The notes beneath the pieces are model-generated. The model ran no database searches and had not been told where the DNA came from. It saw only the letters and a list, made by a program, of their open reading frames with translations. Made by a program: the position numbers and the translations under genes. A stretch of DNA of 43,040 nucleotides from an uncultured bacterium (GTDB taxonomy: Bacteria > Patescibacteriota > Minisyncoccia > Phycocordibacterales > GWA1-40-21): assembly GCA_903850545.1 (NCBI GenBank), contig CAINLW010000018.1:1-43040 (forward strand). The letters are read 5' to 3'. Below, piece by piece: positions 1,153 through 39,540 of this stretch (the first letter of the stretch is position 1; each line of letters starts with the position of its first letter).

Positions 1153-4100
1153 TCAAATAACAAAATTAATTATCTTGTTTTTAACGAAGATCTTCTTGAT
1201 TATCTGCTTATTATCAATCCATTTGACAACAACTTCATTTTTTAATGCTTCCTTCTCAACAGTCTCTTGAAGTGAATCATGAGGTACCTCAATCATGGTT
1301 CTAACTTTCCCATTTACTTGAACAACCATCTTTACTTTGGCAGAAGCAAGTTTGGACGCACTATATTTTGGCCAATCTTCTAAAACGATAAGTTTATTGC
1401 CTGCCCTGAGCTTTGTCGAATGATTGTCAAAATTATTCCAAATTTCCTCGCAGATATGTGGTGCAAATGGCGAAAGAATTTTAATAAAATCTAGGTAAGT
1501 TTTTTTACTAACCTTTTCTTGAGACTCAAAAAAATTACAAAGAATCATCATTGAAGAAACGGCGGTATTTAAATTGAACGACTCAGCGTCTTCTCCAACT
1601 TTCTTGATCGTCTGATTCAAAAGTAAAATGACTTCTTCTTTATCAATATATTTTTCATCCACCTTATCTTTCAATTTCCAAACTTTTTCCAAAAATCTTC
1701 TTGAACCTACCATACTGTTCGTACTCCAGGCAATTTCTTGACTAAATGGTCCCATAAAACACTCGTAAACTCTAAGTGTGTCTGCACCGACATTTTTTAT
1801 CACGTCATCCGGATTGACAACATTTCCCCATCTCTTGCTCATTTTCCTATTATCTGAGCCAAGTACCATTCCTAAATTTCTAAGCTGTCTAAATGGTTCA
1901 CTAGTACTAACAACGCCAATATCAAACAAAAATTTATGCCAAAAACGTGCATATATCAAATGTCTTGTTGCGTGTTCAGCTCCACCAACATACATATCAA
2001 CTGGTGCCCAATATTTTTCTTTCTTTGGATCAACCAAAGATTTATTATTTTTAGGATCCATATATCTCAAATAATACCAGCAGGAACCAGCCCATTGAGG
2101 CATTGTGTTTGTTTCTCTTTTTGCCACACTTCCACAAACTGGACATTTTACATTTACCCATTTTGAAATCACAGCAAGTGGAGATTCTCCTGTTCCGGTC
2201 GGTTCGTATGATTTAACTTTTGGAAGCTTCACAGGCAAATCCTTTTCAGGAACTGCAACAACACCTGAAGTTTCTACAACTGGAAAATTTTCTAAAATTT
2301 CACTAAATTCAAAAATACCGGCTTTCTTACTAAAGTGTCCCTTGCCTTTCAATAATATAGTTCTAGCTTTCAAATTTTTATAATCATTACCAACATTTTG
2401 ACAAATATAAGGATCGTTATCAGACAGATAAACTACACTTTCTCTAACAAATTTAGCTATTGCTGAAAGTTTTTTGCTTTCAACATTAAATGATTTAATC
2501 ATTTTTATCTGTTCATCATCAGCTCCGTCATTTTTTATATTACTCCAATTTTTAGCGTCCATACTAGGACCAGTTGGAGCAACCAAAATCATCTTACTAA
2601 TTTTGATTTTATTTTTTAATATATATTGACAAACTGTAGCCCCACCGAGACTATGTCCAACCAGAAAGACTGTTCTGTTTTTACTTATTTTCATCTTACT
2701 CAAATCACGAACCCACTCGTTAAGTTTTGGACGCTTTGAATTGGACAAATTTGGAATATACACTTCATAACCACGATCTTCCATTGTCTTTTTAAACCAT
2801 GGGAACCAAATTTCTTGATTATTACCTGCAAGTCCATGAGCAAGAATAACCAATGGTTTTTGTGCACAATTTTCACAATGAATAAGTGGAATAGGATCTC
2901 CCCAATATCTTTGTCTTGAAAAAACCCAGTCCTGAAGCTTGTAAGTTTTTGTCATTTCTCCACCTGCAAATTCTGTAATAGCTTTCATAGCCTCTTCGTT
3001 TTCCATTCCATCAAAATGTCCAGAATTATTCATAATTCCTCCTTCAGTATAAGCGTGTGGAGGATTAAAAAAACGATCGAGCCAAATTTTATATTCGCTA
3101 CATTTTACATTTATATCTTTTGAAATTTCATCCCATGATAACCAGACTACATCATGAATCCTTTTTTCTTCCTCAGACATCTCATTTCTTGTGTCATCAA
3201 TAAGCTCGAAAACAAGTGCGTTGAACATTGCTTTTCTATTTTCATCTTTATGACTTGCAAAAAAGTTTGATTCGACAGGACCTCCAAGTGTTTTGATATA
3301 TTTATAATTAACGTATCCGGTTTCTTCAGCAATTTCTCTTTTTGCAGCCTCAACAATATCTTCATCGTTTTCTACACCACCTGTAACAAACGTTGTCCAT
3401 GAAAACTTTTTCCAACGCAAACATAATACCTTTTTTGTTTTTGGATCAATAACAATGGCTTGAATAGCTCTTCGGGCCACTATTTTTTTATCTAATCTTG
3501 GAGGATCTGCATGATCAATAGTCTTAGGAATAATTACTTCTTTTATCGGTAAATTATATTTCTTTGCAAATGCATAATCCCTATCATCGTGTGCTGGAAC
3601 CGCCATAACTGCACCAGTACCATAATGACCCAAAACATAGTCGGAAATAAAAACTGGAATAATTTCTTTTGTAATCGGATGTTTTACAATCACTCCTTTT
3701 AGTTCAACACCGGTTTTTTCCTTTGTGTCAGTCGTACGTTCAATTTCTGTTTTATTTTTTGTTGTTTTAATATATTCTTCAACTTCTTTCCAATTTATTA
3801 TTTGACTCTTTAGTTTTTGGACCAATTCGTTTTCTGGTGCAAGAACAACATAAGTCACTCCGTATAAAGTGTCTGGACGTGTTGTAAAAACCCAAATTTT
3901 CTCATCAGAATTTGCAATATTAAACCAAAGCTTTGCACCTTCACTCCTACCAATCCAATTTCTCTGCAATTCTTTAATATGTTCCGGCCATTTCAATTCT
4001 TCTAAACCATCTAAAAGTCTATCAGCATAATTACGAATTTTAAGAACCCATTGTCGCATAGGTTTCTTTTCAATTACTGTTCCACATCTCTCACATTTGC

Positions 4101-4644
4101 CATCTTGCAAGTCTTCATTTGCAAGACCGGTTTTACAAGAAGGGCACCAATTTATCGGTGCAAACGATTCATAAGCCAAACCTTTTTTGAATAACTGCAA
4201 AAAAATCCACTGTGTCCATTTATAATATTTTGGATCAGTTGTGTTTATTTCTCTATCCCAATCATAATTTAATCCTATTCCTGAGATTTGTTCTTTAAAT
4301 CTTTTAACATTTTTCTTTACAGCAACTTCAGGATTTATTTTCATTTTTATTGCATACTGTTCCGCTGGTAGTCCAAAAGCGTCCCATCCCATTGGATGAA
4401 GAACATTGAAACCTTGCATCTTTTTAAGTCGTGAATATACATCTGTCGCAATATAACCCCTTGGATGCCCAACATGAAGGCCGTCACCAGATGGATAAGG
4501 AAACATATCCAGAACATAACATTTTGGTCTGTCTCCTTTTTCAGAAGTTTTGTTAACTTTATTCTTTTTCCAAATCTCTTGCCACTTCTTTTCAATTTTT
4601 AAATGATTATAAATTGTTTGCTTTGCAATTTTTTCTTTTTTCAT
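1153..4644 (-). CDS. leuS: Leucyl-tRNA synthetase with inserted Nudix and alpha/beta-hydrolase domains
   Basis: Class I LeuRS, which charges tRNA-Leu. Residues below are numbered from the chosen ATG. It has HVGH (57-60), a four-Cys zinc knuckle (CPSC...CERC, 167-187), CP1 editing motifs (TTRPDTLYG and the editing Asp in GTGAVMAVPAHDDRD), KMSKR (934-938) and the C-terminal VNGKVR. At 1163 aa it is about 300 aa longer than a usual bacterial LeuRS. The excess is two in-frame insertions: a Nudix domain at about 372-529 and an RBBP9/YdeN-like serine hydrolase at about 594-792. All aminoacylation and editing motifs are intact on both sides, so the enzyme is probably functional. An in-frame extension to 4716 was rejected: it would start upstream of the likely promoter and is not LeuRS-like. 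No SD is seen; a -10-like TATATT lies 8 nt before the ATG. Confidence 0.95.
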   Translation of the reverse strand: MKKEKIAKQTIYNHLKIEKKWQEIWKKNKVNKTSEKGDRPKCYVLDMFPYPSGDGLHVGHPRGYIATDVYSRLKKMQGFNVLHPMGWDAFGLPAEQYAIKMKINPEVAVKKNVKRFKEQISGIGLNYDWDREINTTDPKYYKWTQWIFLQLFKKGLAYESFAPINWCPSCKTGLANEDLQDGKCERCGTVIEKKPMRQWVLKIRNYADRLLDGLEELKWPEHIKELQRNWIGRSEGAKLWFNIANSDEKIWVFTTRPDTLYGVTYVVLAPENELVQKLKSQIINWKEVEEYIKTTKNKTEIERTTDTKEKTGVELKGVIVKHPITKEIIPVFISDYVLGHYGTGAVMAVPAHDDRDYAFAKKYNLPIKEVIIPKTIDHADPPRLDKKIVARRAIQAIVIDPKTKKVLCLRWKKFSWTTFVTGGVENDEDIVEAAKREIAEETGYVNYKYIKTLGGPVESNFFASHKDENRKAMFNALVFELIDDTRNEMSEEEKRIHDVVWLSWDEISKDINVKCSEYKIWLDRFFNPPHAYTEGGIMNNSGHFDGMENEEAMKAITEFAGGEMTKTYKLQDWVFSRQRYWGDPIPLIHCENCAQKPLVILAHGLAGNNQEIWFPWFKKTMEDRGYEVYIPNLSNSKRPKLNEWVRDLSKMKISKNRTVFLVGHSLGGATVCQYILKNKIKISKMILVAPTGPSMDAKNWSNIKNDGADDEQIKMIKSFNVESKKLSAIAKFVRESVVYLSDNDPYICQNVGNDYKNLKARTILLKGKGHFSKKAGIFEFSEILENFPVVETSGVVAVPEKDLPVKLPKVKSYEPTGTGESPLAVISKWVNVKCPVCGSVAKRETNTMPQWAGSCWYYLRYMDPKNNKSLVDPKKEKYWAPVDMYVGGAEHATRHLIYARFWHKFLFDIGVVSTSEPFRQLRNLGMVLGSDNRKMSKRWGNVVNPDDVIKNVGADTLRVYECFMGPFSQEIAWSTNSMVGSRRFLEKVWKLKDKVDEKYIDKEEVILLLNQTIKKVGEDAESFNLNTAVSSMMILCNFFESQEKVSKKTYLDFIKILSPFAPHICEEIWNNFDNHSTKLRAGNKLIVLEDWPKYSASKLASAKVKMVVQVNGKVRTMIEVPHDSLQETVEKEALKNEVVVKWIDNKQIIKKIFVKNKIINFVI
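2269..2865 (-). other. RBBP9/YdeN-like serine hydrolase domain inserted in LeuRS
   Basis: This sub-region of leuS encodes about 199 aa that interrupt the LeuRS segment IHCENC / VVAVPEKDLPVKLP. It starts LVILAHGLAGNNQEIWFPW, carries the nucleophile elbow GHSLGG, an Asp in SDNDPY and a His in GKGHF, so the Ser-Asp-His triad is complete. The layout matches the RBBP9/YdeN alpha/beta-hydrolase family. Catalytic competence is inferred from these residues; the substrate is unknown. Confidence 0.88.
3058..3531 (-). other. Nudix hydrolase domain inserted in LeuRS CP1 region
   Basis: This sub-region of leuS encodes about 155 aa between KKYNLPIKEV and AYTEGGIMNNSGHFDG, which are adjacent in ordinary LeuRS. 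It contains a perfect Nudix box, G-x5-E-x7-REI-x-EE-x-G-Y (GGVENDEDIV...REIAEETGY), followed by typical Nudix strands (NALVFELID, VVWLSWDE). Nudix enzymes cleave nucleoside diphosphates linked to another moiety; the substrate here is unknown. Confidence 0.9.
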
Positions 4645-4652
4645 ATACTTAA

Positions 4653-4678
4653 AATATACAGCAAAATCAGTTTTTATT
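4653..4678 (-). promoter_or_regulatory. Possible leuS promoter close to the start codon
   Basis: On the minus strand a weak TTTAAT, a 17-bp spacer and TATATT (4653-4658) end 8 nt before the ATG. A start about 7 nt downstream of the -10 would give a nearly leaderless mRNA. The -35 is poor. Confidence 0.35.
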
Positions 4679-4684
4679 AAACAC

Positions 4685-4712
4685 TTGACAACTAATAGAA
4701 AACGTGTAAGAT
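4685..4712 (+). promoter_or_regulatory. Promoter of small gene 4755-4949
   Basis: Consensus TTGACA (4685-4690), a 16-bp spacer and TAAGAT (4707-4712). It lies back-to-back with the leuS start. Confidence 0.65.
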
Positions 4713-4754
4713 GCACGTTGGGTGTGGTTAGATAGAAAATCAGTTGGAGGAATA

Positions 4755-6942: not shown

Positions 6943-7269
6943 ATGCCCAGTTATCTTTTAACAGATACGTCGTGCGTCTCGGTTGTAGCTCTTTCTTACC
7001 TCAAAAAAATCAGCATAAAAAAGAGGTTTAAAAGATCAAAAAAATATAGAAAAGACATTTGTCTTGCTGTAGATGCAAGATTTGGATACGAAGATGGCAC
7101 AACTGAATGCCATATAAAAAAACTTCTCCTTCTAAAAAAGGGTAAGGAAAGAGAAGGAAGTGTAGAAAAGAAAAAAAAGAAAAAGGTTTTTTTTCGAATT
7201 AAAAAAAGAGACAGAGACTGGTGTCCTGCACGTAATAATAGAGCATATCGTAAAAGAAGACGGCATTAA
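6943..7269 (+). CDS. Small strongly basic orphan protein (108 aa)
   Basis: I do not recognise this protein. It is extremely basic, with a Lys run in the middle and RAYRKRRRH at the C-terminus, so nucleic-acid or ribosome binding is a reasonable guess only. A central AVDARFGYEDGTTECHIKK resembles KVDALFGFPKNTMAKYFGKK of the gene at 7756, hinting at distant paralogy. The start is set by AAGGAG about 6 nt upstream. It is flanked by its own TTGACA promoter and a strong terminator (7284). First of four consecutive small units. Confidence 0.65.
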   Translation: MPSYLLTDTSCVSVVALSYLKKISIKKRFKRSKKYRKDICLAVDARFGYEDGTTECHIKKLLLLKKGKEREGSVEKKKKKKVFFRIKKRDRDWCPARNNRAYRKRRRH

Positions 7270-7283
7270 ATTGCCCAAAAAAA

Positions 7284-7307
7284 GGGTCTGGAAACAGACC
7301 CTTTTTT
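7284..7307 (+). terminator. Terminator of gene 6943-7269
   Basis: GGGTCTG, loop GAAA, CAGACCC, then six T. Confidence 0.9.
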
Positions 7308-7309
7308 GT

Positions 7310-7339
7310 TTGACATGGTATACAATGTTATGCTATATT
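7310..7339 (+). promoter_or_regulatory. Extended -10 promoter of gene 7386-7640
   Basis: TTGACA (7310-7315), 18 bp, TATATT (7334-7339) preceded by TGC. It begins 2 nt after the preceding terminator's T run. Confidence 0.75.
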
Positions 7340-7385
7340 ATCACGCGTAGTAGTTCTGTCAAAAAAATTTGATAAGGAGAAAAAA

Positions 7386-7640
7386 ATGGCAGATTTTAAA
7401 ACGCGTTTGATAGAGGCGGTGAAATACGTAAAATGTCAGCGAAAAATAGGCATAGATATCGGGCTGGCGATAAGTAATGCTTCTATAGAATGCGATGTCG
7501 ATCGGACTCAATTAGCACAAGAAATGTCCAGACTTGCAGCAGAAGTAAAAGCTGCGCGTATAAAAGCCAGAGCTGATGCAAAAGCGGCGAGGTTTGCTAA
7601 TTGGCATGCCATCGACGCTAGAAGATACGGGGACAACTAA
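7386..7640 (+). CDS. Small orphan protein (84 aa), helical, Ala/Arg-rich
   Basis: I do not recognise this protein. Its middle, ASIECDVDRTQLAQEMSRLAAEVKAARIK, reads like an HTH-type helix pair followed by an Ala/Arg-rich amphipathic helix. It has no signal peptide or membrane segment. AAGGAG at 7374-7379 precedes the ATG at 7386. It has its own promoter (7310) and terminator (7654). Its base composition is richer in G+C than the flanking housekeeping genes, by eye. Confidence 0.68.
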   Translation: MADFKTRLIEAVKYVKCQRKIGIDIGLAISNASIECDVDRTQLAQEMSRLAAEVKAARIKARADAKAARFANWHAIDARRYGDN

Positions 7641-7653
7641 TGCCGTATCGAAG

Positions 7654-7684
7654 GGGGGTCTGAGGTCAGACTCCCTTTTCGTTT
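7654..7684 (+). terminator. Terminator of gene 7386-7640
   Basis: GGGGGTCTG, loop AGGT, CAGACTCCC (one G-T pair), then TTTTCGTTT. The upper stem GTCTG/CAGAC is the same as in the preceding terminator. Confidence 0.85.
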
Positions 7685-7712
7685 GACATCATGAGTAACA
7701 AAATGCTACAAC
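7683..7712 (+). promoter_or_regulatory. Promoter of genes 7756-8272
   Basis: TTGACA (7683-7688), 18 bp, TACAAC (7707-7712) preceded by TGC; the same architecture as the promoter at 7310. Confidence 0.6.
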
Positions 7713-7755
7713 ATTATCTAGACGAACATGAAGCAATTCTCGTTAGGGGGTAAAA

Positions 7756-8049
7756 ATGCCAAAAATTAATGCCTCCAAATTAAAGAAGGCAGAAAAACTC
7801 GTTAATAAGCTAACTGAGAATGGTGAATATAGAGGGTACGTATTTGTAAAAGTTGATGCTCTTTTTGGTTTTCCAAAAAACACTATGGCAAAATACTTTG
7901 GAAAAAAGGAAAGTACTGCCAGTAAACGCAAAAAGAGGTTTCATAAAAACTATGGGTGTATATGCCTTTCCATAGAACCTAAAAAAGGAAGGAGGGACAA
8001 CCCGCACAAAAAGAAAAAAACATCTTTAAAAGGAGCAAAAAATGGGTGA
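7756..8049 (+). CDS. Small basic orphan protein (97 aa)
   Basis: I do not recognise this protein. It is Lys-rich (MPKINASKLKKAEKLVNKL...), with a central segment, VDALFGFPKNTMAKYFGKKES, that looks helix-turn-helix-like and resembles the gene at 6943. The C-terminus is disordered and basic (KKGRRDNPHKKKK). The start has a GGGGG SD at about 5 nt. Its 3' end overlaps the next gene by 8 nt (ATGGGTGA), so the two are translationally coupled and share the terminator at 8286. Confidence 0.65.
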   Translation: MPKINASKLKKAEKLVNKLTENGEYRGYVFVKVDALFGFPKNTMAKYFGKKESTASKRKKRFHKNYGCICLSIEPKKGRRDNPHKKKKTSLKGAKNG

Positions 8050-8272
8050 CAAACCAACCAAAGGGAGGAGGGACAGCAAACAAAAAGGTGAACAGGATGA
8101 TCCTAAGGAGAAGCTTCCTGGCGCTCAGGGTGGAGGGCTGGATAAAGTATATTCTGCCTTCATCAAAACAAGTAAAGAGGAGTTGCCCAAGCCGGGTAAT
8201 GTGCCGATAAGCAAGGCCGGCATCCGCTTTACTTTACCTGACAGAATCATGCGTATTATGAAGGGGAAATAA
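8042..8272 (+). CDS. Small orphan protein (76 aa), coupled to upstream gene
   Basis: I do not recognise this protein. The N-terminal half is charged and Gly/Lys-rich and shares GRRD-type segments with the end of its neighbour (KGRRDNPHK against KGRRDSKQK). The C-terminal half is more ordered (LDKVYSAFIKTS, then GIRFTLPDRIMRIMKG). AAAGGAG about 6 nt upstream fixes the start. It overlaps the upstream gene by 8 nt, so the pair probably forms one operon and may encode interacting partners (inference). Confidence 0.65.
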   Translation: MGDKPTKGRRDSKQKGEQDDPKEKLPGAQGGGLDKVYSAFIKTSKEELPKPGNVPISKAGIRFTLPDRIMRIMKGK

Positions 8273-8285
8273 AGAGAAGAGTAGA

Positions 8286-8330
8286 AAAGGGCGGGTGGCT
8301 GACCTATAGTAGGTCTCCCCCGCTCTTTAT
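8286..8330 (+). terminator. Terminator of the 7756-8272 pair
   Basis: GCGGG...CCCGC with an inner GACCTA/TAGGTC stem, followed by TCTTTATAATTT. Confidence 0.75.
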
Positions 8331-8375
8331 AATTTGTCCAAAACACCAAAAACTGTTATATTTGTTTTGTATTTA

Positions 8376-8410
8376 GAACTTTATAAACTTTTAACTTTAT
8401 AACTTTCTAC
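8376..8410. repeat. AACTTTATAA repeat cluster, copy a
   Basis: Repeats of AACTTTATAA with 10-11 bp spacing in intergenic DNA. Five similar clusters lie at 31818, 33931, 34992, 35121 and 42072. Confidence 0.6.
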
Positions 8411-8418
8411 TTATTAAA

Positions 8419-8626
8419 TGGCCTTATCGTCTGATGTGAGATTGGGTTGGGACCCAATCGCAAGATCGGAGCACGGCGGTGCGAGTCGGGGTCGGCATAA
8501 ATTTTCGGCAGAAAATTATATGTGACCCAAGCGAAAGACCTGTGATAGTTTTATATGAACGACAGTGAAATAAAAAACAGAACAGGTGTACAGCTTCTGT
8601 AAGAAGGTAAATTCGGGGTTCGAGGT
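8419..8626 (+). ncRNA. Candidate structured RNA upstream of tRNA-Glu
   Basis: This block starts with GGCCTTATCGTCT, identical to the first 13 nt of the tRNA-Glu 228 bp downstream, and ends with a T-arm-like TCGGGGTTCGA. Between them are stems: GATTGGGT/ACCCAATC, GGGTC/GACCC enclosing AATTTTC-GGCA-GAAAATT, ACCTGT/ACAGGT enclosing TTTTAT/ATAAAA, and ACAG-CTT-CTGT. The last part (8585-8607) is shared exactly with 36937-36959. No ORF of note. Whether it is transcribed is unknown. Confidence 0.45.
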
Positions 8627-8646
8627 TTGTTTGATAATTTAATATT

Positions 8647-8718
8647 GGCCTTATCGTCTAACGGTTAGGACACGGCCTTCTCAAGGCTGGAATCGGGGTT
8701 CGATTCCCCGTAAGGTCA
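8647..8718 (+). tRNA. tRNA-Glu (anticodon CTC)
   Basis: A 72-nt cloverleaf. The acceptor GGCCTTA pairs with TAAGGTC (one G-U). The D arm is GTCTAACGGTTAGGAC, the anticodon stem CGGCC/GGCTG with loop TTCTCAA (CTC at 34-36), and the T arm CGGGG-TTCGATT-CCCCG, with discriminator A. CCA is not encoded. The sequence closely parallels E. coli tRNA-Glu in layout. A terminator follows at 8727. Confidence 0.95.
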
Positions 8719-8765
8719 CAGTTTCAGGAAGCGCTTAAATAGCGCTTTTTGAACTTGTGACCTTA
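8711..8765. repeat. Long inverted repeat containing the tRNA 3' end
   Basis: TAAGGTCACA (8711-8720, including the tRNA acceptor strand) is exactly inverted at 8756-8765. Together with the inner arms this gives an about 25-bp imperfect hairpin whose tip is GAAGCGCT/AGCGCTTTTT. The tip (8727-8750) with its T run probably terminates tRNA-Glu transcription. Confidence 0.75.
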
Positions 8766-8806
8766 AGCAAACAAACTGCTTTGTTTGCGTCGGGGAATCG
8801 AACAGC
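8766..8806 (-). repeat. Inverted tRNA-Glu 3' fragment with hairpin insertion
   Basis: Read on the minus strand, GTTCGATTCCCCG (the tRNA T-arm 3' portion) is followed by a hairpin GCAAAC...GTTTGC and then TAAGGTCACA. It is a partial, reversed copy of the tRNA 3' end with a 24-nt insertion between T arm and acceptor strand. It has no 5' half, so it is not a functional tRNA. Confidence 0.6.
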
Positions 8807-8809
8807 GGA

Positions 8810-9069
8810 ACGATGTTTTTTCTGTAGAAAAAATGAGTGAGCTGGTGCCCAGACAAAGCTGAGTGACTACGAAGCTTTAGTCGAGGGAGATAAATGTACC
8901 CATGGTCTCTGTAGGGTCACAAAGCGTTAATAAATCTGCACTACTGCAGGTTTTTTAGCTTTGTGAAAGCGCAGGTATAATTTTTCAGTAGAAAAATAGC
9001 CGAGCTGGGGTCGCGAACACTTACATATTTTATGAGAGAAACGAAATAAAATATTTAGTGATTCGTGAC
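8810..9069 (+). ncRNA. Candidate structured RNA downstream of tRNA-Glu
   Basis: There is no ORF but stem follows stem: TTTTTTC-TGTA-GAAAAAA (8815-8832), GACAAAGCT/AGCTTTAGTC (8852-8882), TCACAAAGC/GCTTTGTGA (8917-8965) with an inner CTGCA/TGCAG, TTTTTC-AGTA-GAAAAA (8981-8996), and a large hairpin GTCGCGAA...TTCGTGAC (9010-9068) with an inner ATATTTTAT/ATAAAATAT. Two modules repeat the order 'TTTTTC-NGTA-GAAAAA, then GAGCTGG, then hairpin with purine-rich loop'. Strand and expression are unproven. Confidence 0.4.
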
Positions 9070-9097
9070 AACACAAGATATACATCCTCAGAATTTC

Positions 9098-9115
9098 GGC
9101 GCGACGCTTCGCGCC
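9098..9115. other. GC-rich hairpin GGCGCGA-CGCT-TCGCGCC
   Basis: A 7-bp perfect stem just upstream of the methyltransferase promoter. The first 10 nt of the window (GCTTCGCGCC) equal its right half, so a second copy probably straddles the window edge downstream of the gene at 28-1065. Confidence 0.55.
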
Positions 9116-9125
9116 TTACTTATGT

Positions 9126-9131
9126 TATACT
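9126..9131 (+). promoter_or_regulatory. Extended -10 close to ATG of the methyltransferase
   Basis: TG-T-TATACT with only 6 nt (TTCTTT) to the ATG at 9138; no SD. This is compatible with leaderless transcription. Confidence 0.5.
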
Positions 9132-9137
9132 TTCTTT

Positions 9138-9680
9138 ATGATAATAGTTTTAATTTTCTTGCAAATCATATTACTAATTATGATTGTTCTTATGTTTGGT
9201 TTTTTACTTAACAGTTTTTTTACTGACGCTCCATTTGTTCCAGTGAAAAAACGTGTTTTAGAAATAATTATTGACACTCTTAAACTTTCTCCAAATAGTG
9301 TATTGTATGATTTGGGTTGTGGTGATGCGCGCGTACTTTTAAAAGCAAATGAATCTTTTAAAAAAATTAAAAAAATTGGAGTAGAAAAAAACAGTGTTGT
9401 ATATTTATGGGCAAAATGGCTAACTAGAAATACAAACACCAAAATATATTGCGAAGATGCACACAAAACACAACTTAAAAATGCCACTCACATTTATCTT
9501 TATTTATTGCCAAAAATAATGGAGAAATTACAATCTAAAATTATAAATGAATGTAAACCCGGAACACGTATTGTTTCTTGTGATTTTAAATTTACGAATC
9601 TTACTCCTGACGAAATAATAAACCTTCCTGCATCAAAGGATAAAATGTGCAATAAATTATATGTTTATACATTAAAATAA
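9138..9680 (+). CDS. Membrane-anchored class I SAM-dependent methyltransferase
   Basis: The 180-aa protein begins with a hydrophobic helix (residues 1-27, MIIVLIFLQIILLIMIVLMF...). A Rossmann methyltransferase core follows, with motif I VLYDLGCGDARVLL (about 55-68), an acidic end of strand 2 (IGVEKN) and CEDAHK at the usual motif III position. It resembles small methyltransferases anchored to the inner face of the membrane. The substrate cannot be deduced. It lies 43 bp before the PRPP synthetase gene, which has its own promoter. Confidence 0.8.
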   Translation: MIIVLIFLQIILLIMIVLMFGFLLNSFFTDAPFVPVKKRVLEIIIDTLKLSPNSVLYDLGCGDARVLLKANESFKKIKKIGVEKNSVVYLWAKWLTRNTNTKIYCEDAHKTQLKNATHIYLYLLPKIMEKLQSKIINECKPGTRIVSCDFKFTNLTPDEIINLPASKDKMCNKLYVYTLK

Positions 9681-36864: not shown

Positions 36865-36976
36865 TGTCTTTGCGAGTGAGGAAGTGAAAGTATTCACTTC
36901 CGCAAGACCTTGAACGCTTTGTAATCAAAGAGTGAAAGGTGTACAGCTTCTGTAAGAAGAAGCGTGGCAATCCAGA
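36865..36976 (+). ncRNA. Structured element in the priA leader sharing a 23-nt block with the tRNA-Glu locus
   Basis: GTCTTTGC/GCAAGAC closes a hairpin GGAAGTGAA-AGTA-TTCACTTCC. Then ACCTT/AAGGT encloses CTTTG-TAAT-CAAAG, and ACAG-CTT-CTGT follows. The segment 36937-36959 is identical to 8585-8607. The ends GTCTTTGCGAG and GCAATCC also occur at 39505-39540 as a shorter repeat. Confidence 0.5.
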
Positions 36977-39504: not shown

Positions 39505-39540
39505 CGTCTTTGCGAGAAGGTAATCAGACGTTGCAATCCA
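39505..39540. repeat. GTCTTTGCGAG/GCAATCCA repeat
   Basis: CGTCTTTGCGAG...CAGACGTTGCAATCCA; CGTCT/AGACG can pair. The same ends bound the longer element at 36865-36976. Confidence 0.65.

Follow-up and report, generated by a model that had tools for sequence, protein, structure and literature searches.

Palindromic modules nested around a Patescibacteria tRNA-Glu gene, probably mobile and framed by copies of the tRNA tail

Anatomy of the tRNA-Glu locus

The locus studied here lies within a DNA stretch of 43,040 nt (referred to as the window) and comprises an intact tRNA-Glu(CTC) gene with closely packed hairpins on both sides of it, followed by a gene at 9138-9680. The density of hairpins, to which a preliminary description of the sequence had drawn attention, proved to be real, as the stretch from 8270 to 9140 folds at -308.8 kcal/mol compared with -224.7 ± 6.2 kcal/mol for dinucleotide shuffles (z-score of -13.5). 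In agreement with the same description, no ORF of at least 60 aa was present between 8350 and 9124, and among the Rfam families compared (GOLLD, ROOL, HEARO, T-box and others) only tRNA reached its gathering score. Just upstream of the locus, the window carries a run of small ORFs of higher GC content without Pfam matches (6943-8272).

Four hairpins of the form TTC-NGYA-GAA had been reported from the region, and three of them were recovered; the fourth (CTTCTGTAAGAAG), whose true position is 8594-8606, has the loop CTGTAA instead and belongs to a different type of module. The motif TTTC-NGYA-GAAA occurs three times in the 43-kb window, each time within the region (at 8503, 8819 and 8983), against an expectation of 0.16. 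The two downstream modules built from such a hairpin, GAGCTGG and a longer hairpin could be confirmed as direct repeats (D1 and D3), and GAGCTGGNG was found in the 43-kb window at 8839 and 9002 only (expected 0.25). Pieces of tRNA-Glu, which the preliminary description did not mention, recur around the gene as well (at 8419, 8613, 8757-8803 and 8906-8921). The stretch from 8419 to 9115 consists of at least four separate modules rather than one RNA; these were defined from the recurrent pieces and are referred to as modules A, B, C and D (Table 1).

Table 1. Features at and around the tRNA-Glu gene, with positions in the window
Feature	Position	Strand	Basis
Upstream block shared with the empty orthologous locus	8332-8362	+	87% identical to G002
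Promoter-like site in the upstream block	8334-8362	+	Consensus match alone
Repeat of the initial 14 nt of tRNA-Glu in direct orientation, bounding the upstream insertion on the left	8419-8432	+	100% identical to 8646-8659
Small hairpin GATTGGGT-TGGG-ACCCAATC, a spacer hairpin recurring at these loci	8436-8463	+	
Module A	8464-8527	+	Dispersed copies; covariation in 18 copies
Module B: AAGACCTGTGATAG - hairpin - ACAGGTGTACAG - CTTCTGTAAGAAG	8535-8606	+	Dispersed copies; covariation in 29 copies
Partial T-arm copy of tRNA-Glu, TCGGGGTTCGA, in the right part of the upstream insertion	8611-8626	+	Identical to 8693-8703
tRNA-Glu (CTC), intact	8647-8719	+	ARAGORN and Rfam RF00005, 58.8 bits
Terminator-like hairpin immediately 3′ of tRNA-Glu	8720-8756	+	Inverted repeat 8711-8735 / 8741-8765; fold
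Inverted copy of the acceptor 3′ strand of the tRNA, GTGACCTTA	8757-8765	+	Repeat comparison
Inserted hairpin within the inverted copy, where acceptor and T stem meet	8766-8790	+	Near-constant length, variable stem sequence
Inverted copy of the T-stem 3′ strand and T loop of the tRNA, with its end at T54/G53	8791-8803	+	13/13 nt
Module C: CAGCGGA - hairpin - GAGCTGGTGCCC - hairpin - GAGGGAGA	8803-8890	+	Covariance model R1, 95.1 bits
3′ end of tRNA-Glu in direct copy, with slight decay (TCTCTGTAGGGTCACA against TCCCCGTAAGGTCACA)	8906-8921	+	Repeat comparison; fold
Second-level fold-back: TCACAAAGC - terminator-like hairpin - GCTTTGTGA	8917-8966	+	Inverted repeat I16; fold
Terminator-like site inside the second fold-back	8932-8953	+	
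Module D: AGCGCAGG - hairpin - GAGCTGGGGTCGCGAAC - long hairpin - GTGAC	8968-9069	+	Copies in G000 C17 and G007
GC-rich hairpin with T-rich tail, terminator-like	9098-9115	+	Consensus match alone

Module A is composed, in this order, of a short stem, GGA, a hairpin, GA, the stem, GG, a second stem with the TTTTC-GGCA-GAAAA hairpin, and GTGACC; its copies were gathered together with those of module D. The hairpin immediately behind the tRNA and the inverted copy of the tRNA 3′ end, which spans 8757-8803 overall, form one long continuous palindrome, and the three changes in the direct copy preserve G-U pairing with the inverted copy. Both the second fold-back and module D come after this direct copy. 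A second layout was observed upstream of tRNA-Glu genes, in which the 5′ part of the tRNA is duplicated with module B (with or without module A) between the copies; it is seen at 8419-8646 in the window and at loci L052, L055, L056 and L083. The layout of the T-arm copy at 8611-8626 is also present in genomes G002 and G004.

Modules and their covariation

When 8290-9140 was used as a query, the own genome (G000) returned 56 partial matches, nearly all of them to single sub-stretches, and 59 of the 60 related genomes gave matches, many to tRNA-Glu itself and the others to sub-stretches. Every module was found alone elsewhere in the genome and in many relatives from the order (Paceibacteria), which bears out one of the two readings offered in the preliminary description, i.e., a nest of small palindromic elements. 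The other reading, an undescribed ornate non-coding RNA, does not agree with modules that occur singly elsewhere, nor with an orthologous locus that lacks them.

Modules A, C and D share a common plan (short stem, GGA or GCA, hairpin, GA, closure of the stem, GG and a second hairpin), and module B consists of a long hairpin, then GTGTACWG, then a short hairpin with the loop CTGTAA. Module starts read CAGCGGA, AGACGGAG, AAGACCT and AGCGCAG. The modules were seen singly, in tandem (with tandem units at tRNA Trp-CCA and Phe) or one inside another. Specifically, at the tRNA-Cys of G000 the first hairpin of module A encloses a spacer hairpin and module B; a B-type module encloses an A-type one at tRNA-Gly(GCC).

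For module C, 37 copies from Patescibacteria were aligned; the sequence of locus L163, which comes from a bacterium outside this group and probably matched by chance, was left out. In these 37 rows, 23 of the 28 consensus pairs were changed on both sides, although the outermost pairs were partly set by the search pattern, the inner helices being free of that selection. Moreover, 95.8% of the cells pair (vs. 75.2% after shuffling), and the covariation score amounts to 0.580 (vs. 0.193 after shuffling). Covariation was also found for 9 of 10 pairs in module B (29 copies) and for 15 of 20 pairs in module A (18 copies, the first stem having formed part of the copy selection). These compensatory changes indicate that modules A, B and C are real structures. 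The preliminary description had held that a lack of covarying homologues would speak against its proposal; homologues with covarying pairs do exist, at the level of the modules. Since G-U is common and A-C scarce in module C (28 vs. 6 cells, P of 0.0002), the tRNA-sense strand is indicated as the strand that folds, either as RNA or as single-stranded DNA.

The covariance model of module C found matches in 34 of the 60 genomes of the order and in 13 of 287 genomes sampled across the phylum. Named matches fall mostly in Paceibacteria (Kaiser-, Taylor-, Nomura-, Zambryski-, Vogel- and Yonathbacteria), and the gap lengths and hosts of the matches outside Patescibacteria suggest that many of these are chance hits of a loose pattern. 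A viral origin was considered and set aside, with the module C pattern present in five viral contigs and the module A pattern in none.

Occupied and empty loci

Genome G002, from the same genus, carries an identical tRNA-Glu(CTC) without the hairpins. Its downstream gene, an orthologue of the gene at 9138-9680 (64% protein identity), starts about 15 nt after the tRNA, and the block corresponding to 8332-8362 lies 75 nt before the tRNA in G002 vs. 284 nt in the window. Genome G001 likewise has the identical tRNA-Glu(CTC) without hairpins. The preliminary description had named such loci, which keep tRNA-Glu while lacking the hairpins, as an argument against an RNA of the whole locus, and these two congeners now provide it.

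Comparable differences were found at other tRNA genes. The locus of a tRNA-Tyr with identical 83 nt is empty in G000 (L236) and filled in a relative (L184) and in G002, and one Leu-CAA locus holds module B in G000 and module A in G002. Both the presence and the type of module vary between orthologous loci of congeners and, since congeners have the identical tRNA-Glu or tRNA-Tyr without the unit, the modules are insertions. At tRNA-Arg(CCT), both copies track the host tRNA, which differs between G000 and G002. This insertion seems ancestral and common to the two genomes; the tracking could reflect selection or ongoing conversion instead of neutral decay, and quasi-palindrome correction would also account for it.

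The tRNA-derived frame

Units downstream of tRNA genes lie on the strand of the tRNA and follow a fixed order, i.e., the tRNA, a terminator-like hairpin, an inverted copy of the tRNA 3′ end that stops sharply at T54, a module and, often, a direct copy. The frequency of this frame was determined in an unselected census of G000 (42 tRNA genes), in which the reverse complement of each gene's own T-stem 3′ strand and T loop had to match at no fewer than 11 of 12 positions within 150 nt downstream. By this measure, 19 of about 37-41 testable tRNA genes carry their own inverted T part. When the queries of other tRNAs were used as a control, a score of 11 was reached in 26 of 1324 comparisons and a score of 12 never; upstream of the G000 tRNAs there was no inverted T-part copy, the best score being 9/12. 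Similar results were obtained for G002 (8 of 39 tRNAs) and G046 (11 of 30 sampled).

Across 86 tRNA loci the inverted copy has a sharp edge, with a match of 1.0 at position 54 and 0.08 at position 52; C-type loci also match at position 53, because module C begins with a C. From its start, the inverted copy runs through the acceptor 3′ strand, a hairpin of ~24 nt at the border of acceptor and T stem, and then the T stem and T loop, and the stretch with the border hairpin measures 26 nt (one T-stem base counted) in 41 of 49 loci. Where acceptor pairs are G-U or mismatched, the inverted arm is complementary to the 3′ strand at each of the 22 informative sites, which rules out the tRNA 5′ strand as its source.

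Behind the module, tRNA positions 61-72 recur as a direct copy with at least 10/12 matches in 54 of the 86 loci, most of these at 12/12; in the other 32 no copy attains this threshold, and the window's own locus scores 9/12. Among 26 positions at which direct copies depart from their tRNA, 10 can still form a G-U pair with the arm, 15 are unpaired and one is Watson-Crick paired; pairing between arm and direct copy was set aside as the main selected feature, these departures not being decisive. The idea that insertion exchanges the tRNA tail for a foreign one was likewise discarded, the acceptor and T stems being about equally paired with and without the unit.

The association with tRNA genes was pronounced for module C, which lies within 350 nt downstream of a same-strand tRNA in 9 of the 10 listed matches in G000 (P of about 1e-18) and in 6 of the 6 listed matches in G002 (P of about 1e-12). 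An orphan unit was also encountered in G000 (L038, C47:1-3500), with copies of a tRNA-Leu(TAG) tail and modules, and with no tRNA adjoining.

Discussion

The arrangement and distribution described above suggest that the region is probably a nest of small, non-autonomous mobile palindromic modules on both sides of tRNA-Glu, inserted by fold-back copying of the tRNA tail. In this scheme, of which the fold-back step is a reconstruction from the locus anatomy, a strand whose end is formed by the hairpin that follows the tRNA would fold back and copy the tRNA tail up to the T loop. Synthesis would then switch to a module copy elsewhere, aided by the nearly universal T-loop sequence TTCRA, and would come back to the T-loop/T-stem region that it had left, which would give rise to the direct copy. 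Because its own 3′ end is kept, the tRNA would remain intact. We read the modules as mainly selfish or neutral, with nothing pointing to a benefit for the host. No enzyme could be tied to them, and genes for RAYT and reverse transcriptase are missing from complete genomes that are rich in modules.

A bolder proposal, which we put forward tentatively and consider rather doubtful, is that the element builds its own ends from its target by copying the tRNA 3′ tail in both inverted and direct form. Its RNA would mimic an acceptor-T minihelix, in which the border hairpin would stand for the D and anticodon arms and the module would replace the T loop; as far as sequence goes, the inverted arm and the direct copy can pair into a helix that has a hairpin where the acceptor and T parts meet. 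Such likeness to a tRNA would permit maturation by the tRNA-processing machinery, and self-primed copying at the terminator hairpin would spread the element.

Among known repeats, the REPs, including RPE-4 and RPE-6 of Rickettsia, are palindromic repeats tagged with GTAG or CGTC, of which the CGTC repeats have no dedicated transposase and are recognized by the CGTC tag and a stem of 8-9 bp with a CCA-like tail (PMC3733652). Like the modules, they are small, dispersed, intergenic, palindromic and non-autonomous, and some REP families nest in other palindromes (PMC3733652). However, the modules are larger (double hairpins of about 60-110 nt), have neither a constant GTAG (or GGAG) foot at their palindromes nor a CGTC tag, and are framed at tRNA genes by inverted and direct copies of the host tRNA 3′ end. 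The modules act like small palindromic mobile repeats but lack the tags and the transposase association of REPs. Modules A and B are also found inside CGTCTTTGCGAG..GGCAATCC palindromes, and these harbouring repeats do resemble the CGTC-REPs (PMC3733652). The window itself contains a CGTC-type palindrome (GTCTTTGCGAG..GGCAATCC) enclosing a shortened module B (36866-36965) and a second, empty one at 39506.

Bacterial MITEs (e.g., ERIC, NEMIS and RUP; PMC3733652) are short non-autonomous repeats folding as RNA, as are the modules. MITEs, however, bring terminal inverted repeats of their own and short target duplications, whereas the "terminal repeat" of the modules is sequence of the target tRNA: the flanking inverted sequence follows each neighbouring tRNA and not the element, and the direct copy of the tRNA 3′ end stands alongside this inverted copy. 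Another likeness is offered by the mitochondrial hairpin elements of sponges and Allomyces, which are clustered intergenic hairpin modules, patchy in close relatives, with RNA intermediates suggested for Allomyces and with a tRNA-templated frame unmentioned in the part of the source consulted (PMC2800124). The modules described here are patchy between close relatives as well; the mitochondrial elements are organellar, and the likeness would be one of similar working and not of common descent. What is new is the placement of modules on tRNA genes, between an inverted and a direct copy of that tRNA's 3′ end; no prior description of this tRNA-templated layout was found in the literature searched, and one may exist elsewhere.

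Several other explanations were weighed. The layout might represent a cis-acting RNA switch on tRNA supply, in which the inverted copy would pair either with the tRNA 3′ end (destroying the tRNA) or with the direct copy (freeing it), the module sensing something. In the minimum-energy fold of 8647-8920, the inverted copy indeed takes up the 3′ end of the tRNA while the direct copy is paired with its 5′ strand, the arms and direct copies are mostly close matches to their tRNA, and the arms at tRNA-Arg(CCT) track the changed tRNA. Such a switch is nevertheless unlikely, as the unit is present at only about half of the tRNAs, is patchy in congeners with differing modules per locus, is missing from sister genomes with identical tRNA-Glu and tRNA-Tyr, and sits behind a terminator-like hairpin, while similar modules exist away from tRNAs too. 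Spread by reverse transcription, in which the terminator hairpin of the tRNA transcript would self-prime, a reverse transcriptase would copy the tail until it reached the modified T loop and the resulting copy would integrate, appears distinctly unlikely. The stop in the T loop fits self-primed copying of a mature, modified tRNA, there is a sense-strand bias, and reverse transcriptases occur in 30 of the 60 relatives, including G000. However, the module-rich and complete genomes G020 and G036 have no RVT_1 match, and the reverse transcriptase of G000 resembles the type of diversity-generating retroelements. At L032 (G000 C26:4000-9000), this DGR-like reverse transcriptase was observed near variable-repeat-like ORFs; it is followed by a module B, which lies about 300 nt from it inside a CGTC palindrome and looks coincidental, and by a uvrA-like gene seemingly with an in-frame palindromic-repeat insert.

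Mobilisation of the modules as REP-type repeats by RAYT (Y1) tyrosine transposases is in our judgement very unlikely: Y1_Tnp proteins are present in 39 of the 60 relatives, with two in G000, but no module sequence lies near any of 26 Y1_Tnp loci inspected, G020 (100% complete) combines 9 copies of module C with zero Y1_Tnp, GTAG has no fixed place in the modules, and the RAYT gene of G000 has its own repeat, ACTTGGAAGCAAGGCTTCCAAGT. At L246 (G000 C13), this repeat was seen before, within and after the RAYT-like gene. Integrative elements targeting tRNAs make use of the 3′ end of the gene, which stays intact and gains a direct copy downstream, and attachment-site scars of such elements, formed via a tyrosine integrase, would fit both the target and the direct copy. 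We hold this to be highly improbable, as one attP could not match about twenty different tRNAs, the insertions of about 200 bp (with a cargo of about 100-200 bp) are gene-free and use many tRNAs per family, no integrase lies beside the tRNA copy (no ORF of at least 60 aa within the region), the inverted copy and the acceptor/T-border hairpin are foreign to attL and attR, and the plan is identical in dozens of loci. GOLLD and ROOL are ornate RNAs forming large structured regions near tRNAs, and the high overall stability and the tRNA neighbourhood would suit a single large non-coding RNA of this kind over 8419-9069. This explanation receives the least credence from us, since Rfam at relaxed thresholds gives nothing beyond tRNA above chance level, the whole module order was present in no homologue found, the orthologous locus lacks the region, and matches are piecewise, as in a mosaic of separately dispersed pieces. 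The weak relaxed-threshold hits to mir-9457 and MicX were dismissed as simply reflecting long hairpins.

The mobile modules, as we read them, are of wider interest in that units occupy about half of the tRNA genes of a reduced bacterial genome and in that one recognition rule, i.e., an inverted copy of the tRNA's own tail that stops at T54, holds across an order of Patescibacteria. They provide a searchable and countable system for the movement of short palindromic repeats without a transposase, a question that also concerns CGTC-REPs, RPEs and mitochondrial hairpin elements. They also advise caution, as sequences called "ornate RNA" and regions flanking tRNAs may be mosaics of insertions in genomes of this kind.

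Two further observations concern individual genes. At L247 (G000 C23), an IS200-like gene lies on a sequence whose left part looks Bacteroidetes-like by eye, possibly reflecting contamination or a chimera in the assembly. In the window, an ORF of 1187 aa for a leucyl-tRNA synthetase (1153-4716, minus strand) seems, by eye, to contain NUDIX-like and alpha/beta-hydrolase-like stretches.
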